Origin: Alphaproteobacteria bacterium
GTDB lineage: Bacteria; Pseudomonadota; Alphaproteobacteria; Micropepsales; Micropepsaceae
Assembly: GCA_028865545.1 (NCBI GenBank)
Contig: JAGWJY010000031.1
Location: forward strand, 1-43,908
Direction: 5' to 3'
DNA: 43,908 nt
Every line of letters starts with the position of its first letter. Positions within the stretch are counted from its first letter, which is position 1. The position numbers and the translations under genes are program-made. This document shows, one piece after another, positions 1-43,852 of this stretch. Below the pieces are notes generated by a model, which saw only the letters and a program-made list of their open reading frames with translations, did no database searches and was not told the DNA's origin.

Positions 1-15
1 CCGTCGCTTGGACGG

Positions 16-225
16 GCGGTCGATGCGAAGGTCTGGAGGCGTCAACCCCGGGGGGAAGCAAGGTGCTTAATGGTTTGCCGCCTGACGTGCGGACTCCTAG
101 GGCTTGCCGTAGCTTTCAACGAAAAGACGGGTTTTCCGCCGGGCCATCACACACCGATATGTAGGAGAGAGGGCACCGCGCGGTGCCCGCCTTTTCGTAT
201 GTATATAAGGGCCGTACGCCTTGCA
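16..225 (-). repeat. Structured 3'-flank repeat, copy A
   Basis: Read on the minus strand, this stretch starts right after the stop codon of the lipoprotein gene ending at 226. It matches the stretch after the EF-G-like gene (20223-20421). The best core is 60-114, which agrees with 20324-20378 at 53 of 55 positions; weaker similarity reaches position 16. A 12-bp stem pairs 186-197 with 120-131 (one G-U pair) and encloses a 54-nt loop, which holds a small palindrome at about 172-187. An AT-rich box (199-205) precedes the stem. No convincing reading frame is present. It could be a conserved 3'-UTR RNA, a small repeat, or both. The left edge may be cut by the window. Confidence 0.75.
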
Positions 226-891: not shown

Positions 892-1736
892 TTCGGTGTG
901 TACCCCTTGCGCTGATCGCCGAAGAGCAGCTTCGTCGGCTGGCGGTTGAGCTGGTCCGACAGCTTGTTGAGGCTGACGACCAGCCTGCGCGTGTCGGCCA
1001 GAAGTTGCGCGAATTGCTCGAGACCCTGGCCCTTGACGAATTCGTCGGAGTCGCTGGCCAGCAGGTTGAGTTTGCGGACGCTCTTGTCGACATCGGCGAC
1101 GGTGGCGGGAAGGTCTCTCGAGGCCTCGGAAACATTGCGCAGCGTGGTGTCGATGTCGTCCGAGCGCGACGCCAGCGCGCCGGTCGTCTTGTCGAGATTG
1201 GCCAGGATATGGGCGAAGGCCACCTGGTTGTCGTCGCTCAGCACCGCGTTGATCTTGTCCGCCGCCTCGTTGAGCTTCTGCAGCAGTTGCGGCGCGCCCG
1301 CCGCCAGCTTCTGCAGCGTCGACGGCGCCGACTTGATGACGGGATAGCGCTGGTCGTCCTTGGCTTCCAGCACGGCGGCGCCTTTGCTGCCGCCGCTGAT
1401 CTCGACATAGGTGCCGCCCGTCAGGCCCTGGCTTTCGATCGAGGTCACCGAGTCGACGCGGATGCCGAGATGCGGCTGCACCTGCAGCGTGGCGATCACC
1501 ACCTGCGGATCGTTGGGATCGAATTTGAGGCTGTCGACCCGTCCCACATCGATGCCGTTGTAGCGGACCGTCGTGCCCTTGCCGAGGCCGGTCACCGGTC
1601 CGTTGAAGTTCGTCTGGTAATAGGCGAATTCCTGATTGTATTGCAGCCCCGCCAGCCACAGCAGCGCGATGACCAGCCCCAGCATGCAGACCAGGACGAA
1701 GGCGCCGACCGCCACGTAATTCGCTTTGGTTTCCAT
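888..1736 (-). CDS. mlaD: MCE-domain lipid-binding protein (MlaD family)
   Basis: A 282-residue MCE protein. One membrane helix (about residues 7-30) is followed by a single MCE domain (about 40-117, containing the 'VRYNGIDVGRV' strand and 'GLTGGTYVEISGG'), then a long helical C-terminal part rich in heptad-like leucines. Proteins of this kind sit in the inner membrane, form hexameric rings and pass lipids between the ABC permease and the periplasm. The start has a GAGGTGA ribosome site 6 nt away. It lies 9 nt after the ATPase gene and overlaps the lipoprotein gene by 4 nt. The single MCE domain with one membrane helix fits MlaD rather than multi-MCE PqiB/YebT proteins. Confidence 0.9.
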   Translation of the reverse strand: METKANYVAVGAFVLVCMLGLVIALLWLAGLQYNQEFAYYQTNFNGPVTGLGKGTTVRYNGIDVGRVDSLKFDPNDPQVVIATLQVQPHLGIRVDSVTSIESQGLTGGTYVEISGGSKGAAVLEAKDDQRYPVIKSAPSTLQKLAAGAPQLLQKLNEAADKINAVLSDDNQVAFAHILANLDKTTGALASRSDDIDTTLRNVSEASRDLPATVADVDKSVRKLNLLASDSDEFVKGQGLEQFAQLLADTRRLVVSLNKLSDQLNRQPTKLLFGDQRKGYTPK

Positions 1737-18176: not shown

Positions 18177-20222
18177 ATGTCGAACACAAATGGAGGAAGA
18201 GGGCCACGCACTGTGGCCCTGGTAGGACCCTATGGCAGTGGCAAAACCACGCTTCTCGAAAGCATGTTGTTTGCAACCGAAGCTGTGCCGCGCAAGGGGA
18301 CTATCGCGCAGAAGAACACGGTCGGCGACTCCAGCCCTGAGGCGCGCGCGCGCCAGATGAGCGTCGAGATCAACTGCGCGACGACGCGCTATCTCGACGA
18401 GACGTTCACCTTCCTCGACTGTCCCGGTTCCATCGAATTCCTGCAGGACGCGCTTTACGCCATCCAGGGCGTGGATGCGGCCATCGTGGTCATCGAGCCG
18501 GAACCCGCCAAAGTGCAGATGCTGAAGCCCTATTTGAAGCGGCTCGCCGATCTGAAGATTCCGCACGTCATGTTCGTCAACAAGATAGACAAGGCGAACG
18601 GTTCGTTGCGTGACATCCTCTCGACGCTGCAGGAAGCCAGCGATCTGCCGCTGCTGCTCCGCCAAATTCCGATCTGGGAGAACGAGGTCGTCACCGGCTT
18701 CGTCGATCTGGCGCTCGAGCGCGCCTTCGCCTACCGCGACCATGCGCCTTCGCAGGCCATCGACATCGTCGATAAGGACCGCGAGAAGGAAGCGCGCTTC
18801 ACGATGCTCGAGAAACTCGCCGACTATGACGAGCATCTCATGGAGGAACTTCTATCCGACGTCGAGCCTCCCCGCGAGGAAGTCTTCGGCGACCTCAAGC
18901 GCGAATTCGCTGATTGTCTGGTGGTGCCGGTGCTGATCGGTTCGGCCGAAGGCGATCACGGCATCCGCCGATTGCTGAAGGCGCTGCGCCACGAGACGCC
19001 GGACGTAGCGACGACCGCGGCCCGCCTCGGCATTCCGACCAATGGCGACACGATCGTGCAGGTGCTCAAGACGGTGTACTCGGCCCATGGCGGCAAGCTC
19101 AGCCTGTCGCGGGTGATGAACGGCGCGCTCAAGGACGGCGCGGTGCTGCACAATGCGGAAGGTCGCGACGTGCGTGTCGGCGGCATCTTCGCTCTGAAAG
19201 GCGAGGCTGCCACCAAGCTGACGGATGCCTCGGTCGGCGACACGGTCGCGCTGGTGCGCATGGAGGATGTGGCGACCGGCGACACCCTGTCGAGCGCCAA
19301 GATCGCGCCGCCCAAGCCTGAGGTCGAACAGCTGCCGCCGGTCTATCGCCTGGCGATCGAAGCCGCCGACCGCAAGGACGAGGTCAAGCTGACGGCCGCC
19401 ATCGGCAAGCTGATCGAGGAGGACCCCTCGCTGCATTTCGAACAAAGCGCCGAGCTGCACGAGATGGCGCTGGCGGGGCAGGGCGAAATCCACCTCAAGG
19501 TCGCGGTGGAAAAGTTGATGAGCAAATACGGGCTCAAGCTGAACACCAGACCGGCGAGCGTGCCGTACAAGGAGACCATCCGCCGGTCCGTGACCCAGCG
19601 CGGCCGCCACAAGCGGCAGTCCGGCGGTCACGGCCAGTTCGGCGACGTGGTGATCGAGATCAAGCCGCTGCCGCGCGGTGCCGGCTTCACCTTCGTCGAC
19701 GAGATCGTCGGCGGCGTCGTGCCCAAGCAATGGATCCCGTCGGTGGAGAAGGGCGTCGTCGAATATCTGAAATGCGGCCCGCTCGGCTTCCCGGTGGTGG
19801 ATGTCTGCGTGACGCTGACCGATGGCTCCTATCACACCGTCGACTCGTCGGACGCGGCGTTCCAGACCGCGGCGCGTATCGGCATGCAGGAAGGCATGCC
19901 GGAATGTTCGCCGGTGCTGCTCGAACCGATCATGCATGTGCGGATTCATGTGCCGAGCGAGGCGACGGCGAAGGTCAACGCCGTGGTCAGCGGCCGGCGC
20001 GGCCAGCTGATGGGCTTCGACGTACGGCCGGGCTGGAAGGGCTGGGACACCGTGGAAGCCGAGATGCCGCAATCGGAACTCGGCAACCTCATCATCGATC
20101 TCAGATCGCTGACGCAGGGCGTGGGCACATTCGAGATGGTGTTCGACCATCTCGCCGAACTGACCGGCAAGACCGCCGATCACGTGGTGGCGACACACAA
20201 AGCCGACAAGGCGGCGGCATAG
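18177..20222 (+). CDS. Elongation factor G-like GTPase (EF-G paralogue)
   Basis: A 681-residue translational-GTPase homologue with the EF-G domain order: G domain, beta-barrel domain II, domains III-V ('GQGEIHLKVAVEKL', then 'GGHGQFGDVVIEI' and the C-terminal 'MGFDVRPGWKGWDTVEAEMP'). The G1 loop is GPYGSGKT (17-24), G4 is NKID (135-138) and G5 is GSAEG. Two GTPase positions differ from true EF-G: the switch I threonine region reads 'RQMSVEI', and G3 is DCPGS (81-85) instead of DTPGH. It therefore belongs with the EF-G2-like paralogues, whose role is unclear, and not with housekeeping FusA. Start has AAGGAGG 6 nt upstream. Repeat copy B begins directly after its stop. Confidence 0.88.
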   Translation: MSNTNGGRGPRTVALVGPYGSGKTTLLESMLFATEAVPRKGTIAQKNTVGDSSPEARARQMSVEINCATTRYLDETFTFLDCPGSIEFLQDALYAIQGVDAAIVVIEPEPAKVQMLKPYLKRLADLKIPHVMFVNKIDKANGSLRDILSTLQEASDLPLLLRQIPIWENEVVTGFVDLALERAFAYRDHAPSQAIDIVDKDREKEARFTMLEKLADYDEHLMEELLSDVEPPREEVFGDLKREFADCLVVPVLIGSAEGDHGIRRLLKALRHETPDVATTAARLGIPTNGDTIVQVLKTVYSAHGGKLSLSRVMNGALKDGAVLHNAEGRDVRVGGIFALKGEAATKLTDASVGDTVALVRMEDVATGDTLSSAKIAPPKPEVEQLPPVYRLAIEAADRKDEVKLTAAIGKLIEEDPSLHFEQSAELHEMALAGQGEIHLKVAVEKLMSKYGLKLNTRPASVPYKETIRRSVTQRGRHKRQSGGHGQFGDVVIEIKPLPRGAGFTFVDEIVGGVVPKQWIPSVEKGVVEYLKCGPLGFPVVDVCVTLTDGSYHTVDSSDAAFQTAARIGMQEGMPECSPVLLEPIMHVRIHVPSEATAKVNAVVSGRRGQLMGFDVRPGWKGWDTVEAEMPQSELGNLIIDLRSLTQGVGTFEMVFDHLAELTGKTADHVVATHKADKAAA

Positions 20223-20421
20223 AAGGCGTAACGGCCCCATATAGATAGACAGAAGGCGGGTTCTCCGCCCGCACTCCGCAAACACGTTGCGCAGCGCCCG
20301 GCGGACCCGCCTTCTGCCTTTCAAGCTACGGCAAGCCCTAGGAATCCGCGCGTCAGGCGGCAAACCATTAAGCACCTTTGCTCTCCCTCGGGTTTTACGC
20401 CGCCGCCTTCGCATCCACCGC
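20223..20421 (+). repeat. Structured 3'-flank repeat, copy B
   Basis: This element follows the TAG stop of the EF-G-like gene. It parallels copy A (16-225, other strand) over its full length, beginning with the same AAGGCGTA-type start, an AT-rich TATA(C/G)AT box (20240-20246) and a 12-bp stem pairing 20250-20261 with 20305-20316. The 55-nt core at 20324-20378 comes next, then weaker similarity to 20421. The 5' arm can instead fold locally (GGCGG with CCGCC, about 20255-20269). Compared with copy A, two stem base pairs are changed on both sides and pairing is kept. No protein is encoded. I do not recognise it as a named RNA family. Confidence 0.75.
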
Positions 20422-20873
20422 TCTCGCGGGAGTCCCTTGGCCTGGCTTCGTGTCGGATGCGCGCGACGGCATCCAAACCTGTATGACGTTGTCAGCGCAG
20501 TGTGTTCTCAGGTCGGGCCTTTGGCATGGCCCCGTGTCATCGGCATTTCCTCCAGGTGCAAGGCGGGTAGTGTGGTCCGCAGGTTGCGTTTGTTTGTTCC
20601 CTAAAAGTTCATAGTGAACATATGGGCAACATTGATGTGTTGCAACCACCAATATGAGCGCATTTTGTCGCACTCAACTATTGAGAGTGTTTGTTAGAAG
20701 CGTTGGAAAGAAGAGGCAGCGAGTTGTTCGTCAATTGGTGATGGCTGGCCCGTCCGTCGTCACGATCGCGCGGCTCCCCCTGTGGTGACGGCATAGACGC
20801 GGCGCTCCAGGCAGGCTCTGCTCTGACCTAGAACTTCCGATGCGCCTCCGGGCGCGTCCAAGCCGGGGGCACC
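20422..20873. other. 452-nt intergenic region
   Basis: No supported gene. The reading frames here have unlikely composition and no ribosome sites. AT-richer sequence than the surroundings occurs at about 20580-20710, with a 5-3-5 palindrome at 20607-20619 and a short imperfect hairpin with a weak T-rich tail near 20669-20695. The region probably holds the promoter of the secreted protein starting at 20874. Confidence 0.5.
20607..20619. promoter_or_regulatory. 13-bp palindrome, possible operator
   Basis: GTTCA-TAG-TGAAC is a perfect inverted repeat with a 3-nt centre. It sits in an AT-rich part of the spacer, about 255 nt before the next start codon. It could bind a dimeric regulator, but a 5-bp arm can arise by chance. 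Confidence 0.25.
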
Positions 20874-43759: not shown

Positions 43760-43852
43760 TGGCGGACAGGGAGGGATTCGAACCCTCGGAACGGCTCATC
43801 ACCGTTCACACACTTTCCAGGCGTGCGCCTTCAGCCACTCGGCCACCTGTCC
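43760..43852 (-). tRNA. tRNA-Ser (anticodon GGA)
   Basis: On the minus strand the 7-bp acceptor arm GGACAGG/CCTGTCC (43852-43846 with 43770-43764) is followed by discriminator G and an encoded CCA (43762-43760). The D-arm (GGCCGAGTGG), the anticodon loop with GGA (43818-43816), a long class II variable arm and the T-arm (GGTTCGAATCC) are all clear. The long variable arm and anticodon GGA identify serine tRNA for UCC/UCU codons. Confidence 0.97.

Follow-up and report, generated by a model that had tools for sequence, protein, structure and literature searches.

Alphaproteobacteria are known to employ stress-controlled small RNAs encoded more than once per genome, as exemplified by CcsR and its relatives in Rhodobacter sphaeroides, which are short, RpoH-dependent and governed by stress sigma factors. 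6S RNA, a long hairpin that is usually encoded by a single gene, acts by binding protein, OLE, HEARO and GOLLD are large structured bacterial RNAs, and Qrr and LhrC form families of redundant base-pairing regulatory RNAs. Here, we analyse a repeated element found in a 43,908-nucleotide stretch of DNA (the whole of which is hereafter called the window) from a Rhizomicrobium genome (G000). The RNA that it appears to encode resembles CcsR in being alphaproteobacterial, multi-copy and linked to stress sigma factors (here by promoter motifs only), and differs from it in its estimated length of 240-400 nt, in its architecture of junction and probable pseudoknot, and in the number of its dispersed matches, as many as 16 in one genome. 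As with 6S RNA, it would be a folded RNA gene product thought to act via protein, although the Rhizomicrobium element gave no Rfam match to 6S; while comparable in size and complexity to OLE, HEARO and GOLLD, it has, unlike these, neither an Rfam match nor a constant neighbour gene. By its copy number and inconsistent gene orientation it is also akin to the motifs that an intergenic RNA survey classes as candidate mobile or repeat sequences (PMC11109978), whereas its stress-type promoters, terminator, covariation and species-shared positions set it apart from that class.

Taking a score at or above the family gathering threshold over the element as the criterion (Rfam 15), the RNA matches no catalogued family, as the earlier note had supposed, and we claim no membership in a named one. 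The search of the whole window returned only a tRNA gene (43763-43852, minus strand), and that of the element at E <= 5 only two chance matches to microRNAs. When ten loci were searched at E <= 0.1, four matches came up, a SAM-I/IV riboswitch in locus L132 being the only one above threshold (1181-1288, plus strand, 55.2 bits; outside the element). The leader of another copy (L244) carries a sub-threshold 36-bit match to the Brucella sRNA BASRCI408, within a repeat that is absent from L247-L249. A literature search, which with Rfam forms the sole basis of this comparison, found no publication on this Rhizomicrobium RNA. Judged by its sequence features, the RNA would work like a stress-controlled multi-copy small RNA. 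Our preferred reading, to which we give a probability of about 0.73, is that the copies are autonomous genes for a structured RNA which is controlled by stress and works in trans, possibly by way of a protein; that the family is one of autonomous RNA genes is very probable when taken by itself.

Strand, extent and parts of the element

The element was first described as a pair of structured stretches, each placed directly after a stop codon in the sense direction of the preceding gene. On direct inspection both sequences agree with that description (20223-20421, plus strand; 225-16, minus strand), and a hand check gave full pairing of the 12-bp stem in copy 1 (20250-20261/20305-20316, cagaaggcgggt/acccgccttctg) as well as in copy 2 (197-186/131-120, cgaaaaggcggg/cccgtcttttcg, one G-U pair included), and in register two of the pairs are changed on both sides between the copies, while a third is G-C in one and G-U in the other. 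The 3' part common to both copies is 83% identical (E 9.6e-30, search of the own genome). The search for further copies in the own and related genomes, set beforehand as a test, recovered more of them: with 20200-20440 as query, 13 places were found in the own genome at E <= 1e-20 (query and partner copy counted), and these, together with the covariance-model matches in congeners, show that the likeness of the two window copies is not due to chance. In seven of the 13 places a contig ends less than 100 bases away, which is usual for repeats that interrupt an assembly. Alignment of the copies carried the homology some 270 bases past the described stretch, to about 20690, and in the opposite sense; since the conserved element thus covers roughly 20690 to 20230 on the minus strand, the stretch first noticed is its 3' part and makes up less than half of it.

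By sequence, the RNA is placed on the minus strand of the window, where the 12-bp stem is its predicted intrinsic terminator and the RNA converges on the host gene. Copies were collected with two covariance models, of which the first (R1) covers hairpin C together with the beginning of the terminator and the second (R2) was built from 70 matches. Of the 138 R2 matches, 87 were fetched, chosen by hand and mostly from the better ones. Stems of at least 6 bp were found in 77 of the 87 copies tried, the sense strand being T-richer after the 3' arm in 63 of these 77 and T-poorer in 8. A terminator scan of the window gave one site, on the minus strand (20272-20256), with 0.8 given by shuffles, and a plain sigma-70 scan called no promoter at copy 1 in the window. 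Read on the minus strand, copy 1 leads from a promoter-like TTGCAA-17-TATGTT through the conserved body and the stem into a T-rich stretch. The sense-strand 3'-UTR setting proposed by the earlier note did not survive, because the promoter motifs, the terminator polarity and the context contradict it: T-rich tail, promoter motifs and conserved body all lie on the opposite strand. The host genes are indeed unrelated (EF-G domains versus an ABC-type transport auxiliary lipoprotein, Pfam). The adjoining stop codons are present at both window copies, where each closes a gene that converges on the RNA, but they are no trait of the family, as the terminator side faces a same-direction gene in 36 of the 87 copies. 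The general trap is that a terminator stem taken on the wrong strand mimics a 3'-UTR element.

Complete copies consist of a promoter motif, a body and an intrinsic terminator, and the length of their transcripts, estimated from sequence, is about 240-400 nt. The body contains a conserved AUACAGG, a stem (P1) closing a junction of hairpin A and the long stem B, and hairpin C with its 3x3 internal loop. In this reading, what the window copies show are the 3' portions of two genes belonging to this Rhizomicrobium family. The predicted transcript of copy 1 (about 364 nt) occupies 20245-20608 on the minus strand, with its start set from the promoter and its end from the terminator in line with the copy alignment. 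Its promoter region (20616-20645, minus, aligned with those of other copies) contains, by motif, a -35 TTGCAA (20645-20640), a 17-nt spacer, a -10 TATGTT (20622-20617) and a LexA-like GTTG-N7-GTTC with one mismatch (20630-20616). Upstream of the promoter stands a near-palindrome (CACTCTCAATAGTTGAGTG, 20671-20689, minus), related forms of which are seen in own-genome copies; the wider region (about 20671-20710), which combines it with a TGCGACCGCTCCT-like sequence, also recurs upstream in other copies of this genome, and TGCGAC..CTCCT precedes the promoter in some G046 copies too (L114, L118). It is possible that this region is a divergent promoter or operator. Short leader frames behind a ribosome-binding-like site were noted by eye at 20508-20553 (minus) and in the 5' parts of other copies, encoding arginine-rich peptides in some copies and lost in others.

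Further along the minus strand of copy 1 come a 5' strand (GCGCTGAC, 20491-20498) that would form the proposed pseudoknot by pairing with GTCGCGC in the hairpin A loop (20467-20461); the conserved AUACAGG with the 5' strand of P1 (GGUUU, 20475-20484); hairpin A itself (GGAUGC...GCAUCC, 20455-20474), similar hairpins being recognised by eye elsewhere; and the long variable stem B (20397-20453, arms 20453-20439 and 20407-20397), drawn by eye only. The 3' strand of P1 (AAAACC) and a following GAGG (20385-20396) lead to hairpin C (AGCAAAGGUGC ... GCCGUAGCUU, 20323-20383), the most conserved part according to the alignment and pair counts, and the transcript ends in the intrinsic terminator (20245-20317), assigned from its sequence and the family-wide polarity. 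R1 matches copy 1 at 20304-20397 (minus, 92.1 bits). Copy 2 (1-201, plus strand) is truncated where the contig begins and retains only the 3' part, with an R1 match at 42-132 (plus) and a terminator at about 121-201. Contig C94 of the same assembly starts with the same sequence, and as the window contig ends inside the element, the missing 5' part of copy 2 probably lies there.

Fold and covariation

The fold and covariation claimed for the element gained support from the larger alignment, as covariation supports the junction-closing stem P1 and a hairpin. In hairpin C, AAGC/GCUU and GGUGC/GC..GCC flank the 3x3 loop (mostly AAA/GUA), followed by an inner CCGC/GCGG stem. Across 65 distinct rows 95.0% of the cells pair (91.4% in shuffles), 28 cells are double-changed (7.1 in shuffles) and the covariation score is 0.128 (0.071 shuffled; reached in 0 of 500 shuffles), values to be read in the light of an alignment (A2) that was fitted to the model and favours it, and of related sequences, which may exceed shuffles without any structure. 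When the pairing was slid out of register as a control, 31-56% of the cells paired, with at most 13 double-changed ones. For the first 13 sequences the covariation of hairpin C was not above shuffles, and a full-length alignment of 19 rows, folded with RNAalifold, yielded only a partial structure without covariation support.

The closing stem P1 follows the pattern CAGGxxx/yyyCC and is kept in variants such as GGACC/GGUCC (L113), GGUCC/GGACC (L136), GGGCUU/AAGCCC (L064), GGACAG/CUGUCC (L137) and GGAG/CUCC (L147). Both strands were located automatically in 58 of the 87 copies; once near-identical copies were dropped, 46 rows were entered by hand (L001 and L260 added, the register of L119 set by eye), 34 of them distinct. 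Anchored in register, these 34 rows pair in 65 of 102 cells as compared with 47.3 in shuffles (0/5000), most of the signal being carried by the first pair (29 of 34 vs 19.5, 0/5000) and less by the second (21 vs 16.7, 230/5000) and third (15 vs 11.1, 289/5000). Copy 1 is unpaired at the first position in the test register, and a shift of one step yields full GGUUU/AAACC pairing. In an unanchored duplex-energy test of 47 copies the own partners gave -6.41, within the range of 500 shuffles (mean -5.83, lowest -6.53).

An upstream strand complements the loop of hairpin A, e.g. GCGAGG/CCUCGC in L132, GCAAGG/CCUUGC in L123 and CGCCAG/CUGGCG in L120. For this pairing, 65 rows were reduced to 44 copies after dropping near-identical ones, and own partners were found to pair at -13.36 kcal/mol on average versus -12.28 for swapped ones (sd 0.33, 0/1000), a difference to which neighbouring stems can add energy. 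A pseudoknot between the two strands is thus probable by this calculation, its covariation support being less firm than that of P1 and hairpin C; for copy 1, which has no row of its own in the test, it is proposed by extension from the 44 copies.

Conservation is concentrated on the fold and on motifs that are paired or belong to the junction, and for this reason we favour a protein or ribonucleoprotein partner over antisense action, a choice that remains tentative. The folded RNA would then act in trans by binding the ribosome, RNA polymerase or a chaperone system, and its many genes would provide a high dose. As an alternative, the copies might be redundant base-pairing RNAs that silence mRNAs under stress, with which their promoter motifs and terminator, the stress-type character of these promoters and the several copies per genome agree well. 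Such RNAs would hardly be expected to have their most conserved stretches within a structured hairpin and a junction, nor to fold as tightly as the 364-nt transcript of copy 1 (predicted at -148 kcal/mol), and we hold this alternative to be unlikely, though deserving of serious attention.

Stress-type promoters

Upstream regions were scored over 320 bases for CTTGAA-N13..17-CCCATNT (12 positions, first-order Markov controls) in 72 of the 87 fetched copies, the rest having fewer than 420 bases upstream. The pattern follows the sigma-32 consensus CTTGAA-N13-17-CCCCATNT as printed in PMC4263515; an RpoH1 consensus, CTTGAA-N15-16-CCTATAT, appears in a study cited for Sinorhizobium-type promoters (PMC4843759). 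A score of 11 or 12 was attained by 43 of the 72 copies and 8 of the 1440 controls, a perfect match by 28 copies and none of the 1440 controls, and the spacer measured 15 or 16 in 41 of the 43 high-scoring matches. As copies within one genome are often near-identical, the copy counts given here and elsewhere are not independent; by genome, 9 of 15 had at least one copy scoring 11 or more. No scored copy reached this value in G049, G055, G059, G061 and G072, nor did any of the seven scored in the window's own genome, where copy 1 attains at best 10 of 12 (78 of the 1440 controls score as high or higher) and L161-L163 likewise score 10 (TTGAAA...CCCACATC). We consider it likely that the family is widely transcribed by RpoH, and for the copies of the window's genome, which does encode RpoH (a match above its cut-off), possible but somewhat doubtful.

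Genome-wide counts of the exact pattern in six genomes were 10, 20, 24, 21, 1 and 18 (94 in total), as opposed to a single match of the reversed control. Nine of 30 inspected sites precede the family RNA (by eye), and others precede genes for Hsp20 (L200, L206), Hsp33 (L210), enoyl-ACP reductase (L199, L217) and a ClpB-like protein with a Clp N-domain (L208), with Pfam checks made for L206, L210, L208 and L217 only. By eye, the full pattern was not seen upstream of groES and dnaK in the own genome. A second repeated promoter of sigma-32 type with a constant spacer was also observed: in G041, 11 of the 24 sites end in GTTTCCCCATYT, as do 9 of the 18 in G062, and 7 of the 20 sites in G046 have a CCGACA.GG spacer in common. 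In the inspected sites these constant-spacer promoters are followed by variable sequence and not by the family RNA.

The alphaproteobacterial LexA box, GTTCN7GTTC as printed in PMC3091678, was present upstream of 18 of the 72 copies and in 4 of the 1440 controls. Twelve of these boxes lie over the -10 (four in the window's genome, two each in G011, G055 and G056, and one each in G046 and G069), and the remaining six elsewhere upstream; the box of L139, placed over the -10 by the script and in the spacer by eye, was taken out, which reduced 13 to 12. By eye, the region upstream of recA in the own genome shows GTAC-N7-GTTC on the reverse strand. In the mechanism that we propose, RpoH would switch the RNA on in many copies, while DNA damage, through the loss of LexA, would turn it on in others. 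If so, the heat-shock and SOS responses of a soil bacterium would gain a complex RNA family that Rfam does not list.

Distribution, evolution and remaining alternatives

The window's genome contains at least 11 copies, counted by distinct terminator-side flanks, and 13 R2 rows, two of which (C94 and C95:42) are probably one site. Within Rhizomicrobium, R1 found matches in 24 of 69 genomes at E <= 0.01, and R2 in 31 (24 at E <= 1e-4), with 138 matches in total; in the other 38 genomes the family is absent or beyond the detection of R2. The highest number per genome, 16 R2 matches, was registered in Rhizomicrobium electricum DSM 21034 (G041), in which two further copies stand behind promoters of their own (L196, L222; by eye), followed by the 13 rows of the window's genome, 11 matches in G062 and 10 each in G021 and G056. 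As R. electricum DSM 21034 is a cultured soil isolate, induction and function can be tested directly. A DNA search of 41 genomes gave many short chance matches, and only those in G000, G021 and G010 were kept as copies.

Outside the genus, R1 matched the own genome alone among 289 genomes, and R2 matched five of 385 genomes of the class (the own one, one congener and three weak) and four of 398 of the phylum (the own one and three weak), these samples being overlapping and the filters used in searches of more than 40 genomes being stricter, so that weak relatives could be missed. All six weak matches are apparently due to chance: L264-L266 lie in long open frames, and L241-L243 are, by eye, coding-like and promoterless. 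Hits of a pattern scan of named genomes in Marinobacterium, Bdellovibrio, Thiotrichaceae and Lachnospiraceae gave no R1 match. One from the metagenome-assembled genome Proteobacteria bacterium WY3.bin117 (L179) has an R1 match and looks real, and another (L178) has none, though apparently the same region matches R2.

No fixed neighbour gene was found across the 87 fetched copies, yet flank matches revealed positions common to several species (e.g., L164/L066/L121 and L149/L165/L151). The nearest relative of a copy was found in its own genome for 52 of the 73 copies with a hit, against 6.3 expected with shuffled labels (highest 18). Eighteen shared-position pairs, chosen by hand from the longer flank matches, were compared by hairpin C alone: in 11 both copies were closer to a home paralogue than to each other, four were closest to each other (L140/L146, L141/L255, L119/L150, L112/L062) and three were mixed, the pairs not being independent because some loci recur in several of them. 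Gene conversion or repeated re-insertion could account for this likeness within genomes. In copy number and partial homogenisation the family recalls rRNA genes more than ordinary small RNAs. A bolder extension, which we regard as speculative and rather improbable, is that of an amplified bacterial RNA functionally parallel to the SINE RNAs induced by stress: numerous dispersed and partly homogenised genes, under RpoH in many species and elsewhere rewired to LexA, would encode a single pseudoknotted RNA that globally modulates a core machine under stress.

The dispersal of many copies with inconsistent neighbours, their patchy presence, and the nine near-identical copies in R. electricum would also suit a selfish or mobile repeat, one equipped with promoter, RNA fold and terminator but of no use to the cell. 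A published survey files such motifs among candidate mobile or repeat sequences (PMC11109978). This we deem improbable: no terminal inverted repeats were seen by eye in the nine R. electricum copies, several copies hold the same positions in different species, the window copy gave no match to phage and plasmid records (blastn), an exact pattern matched nothing in viral contigs, and the covariation, like the stress promoters that recur, suggests that expression is under selection. The leaders of six of these nine copies (L244, L245, L246, L250, L251, L252) contain a palindromic repeat (GCGCGACCGGAAAA...TTTTCCGATCCGTCGCG) that is absent from L247-L249 and part of which gives the BASRCI408 match of L244.

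Far less plausible than our reading of an RNA gene family is that a leader frame is the product and the remainder a structured UTR of a small-protein gene. In some copies, by eye, a short arginine-rich frame begins with an ATG behind a GGAG-like site, such as MTRGRPKGPI in L003 and MFLSRRGRPRVLVRR in L132; however, the position of the ATG reads AAG or AAA in L002, L008 and L014, and further copies are, by eye, without such a start. The short leader frames of some copies may nevertheless have a coding role. Another short frame, read by eye within hairpin C (MVCRLTRGFLGLAVA), was dismissed, as its ATG is limited in the aligned copies to L001, L004 and L005, the last being probably the same site as L004.

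That the element is a cis-acting 3'-UTR or riboswitch of neighbouring genes, as the stop codons abutting both window copies might suggest, is scarcely credible and already largely refuted by the strand polarity, the promoter motifs of its own and the occurrence of neighbouring genes in both orientations among the 87 copies, for which a rough open-reading-frame method placed the gene facing the terminator side as convergent in 49, in the same direction in 36, and with no flank in 2.
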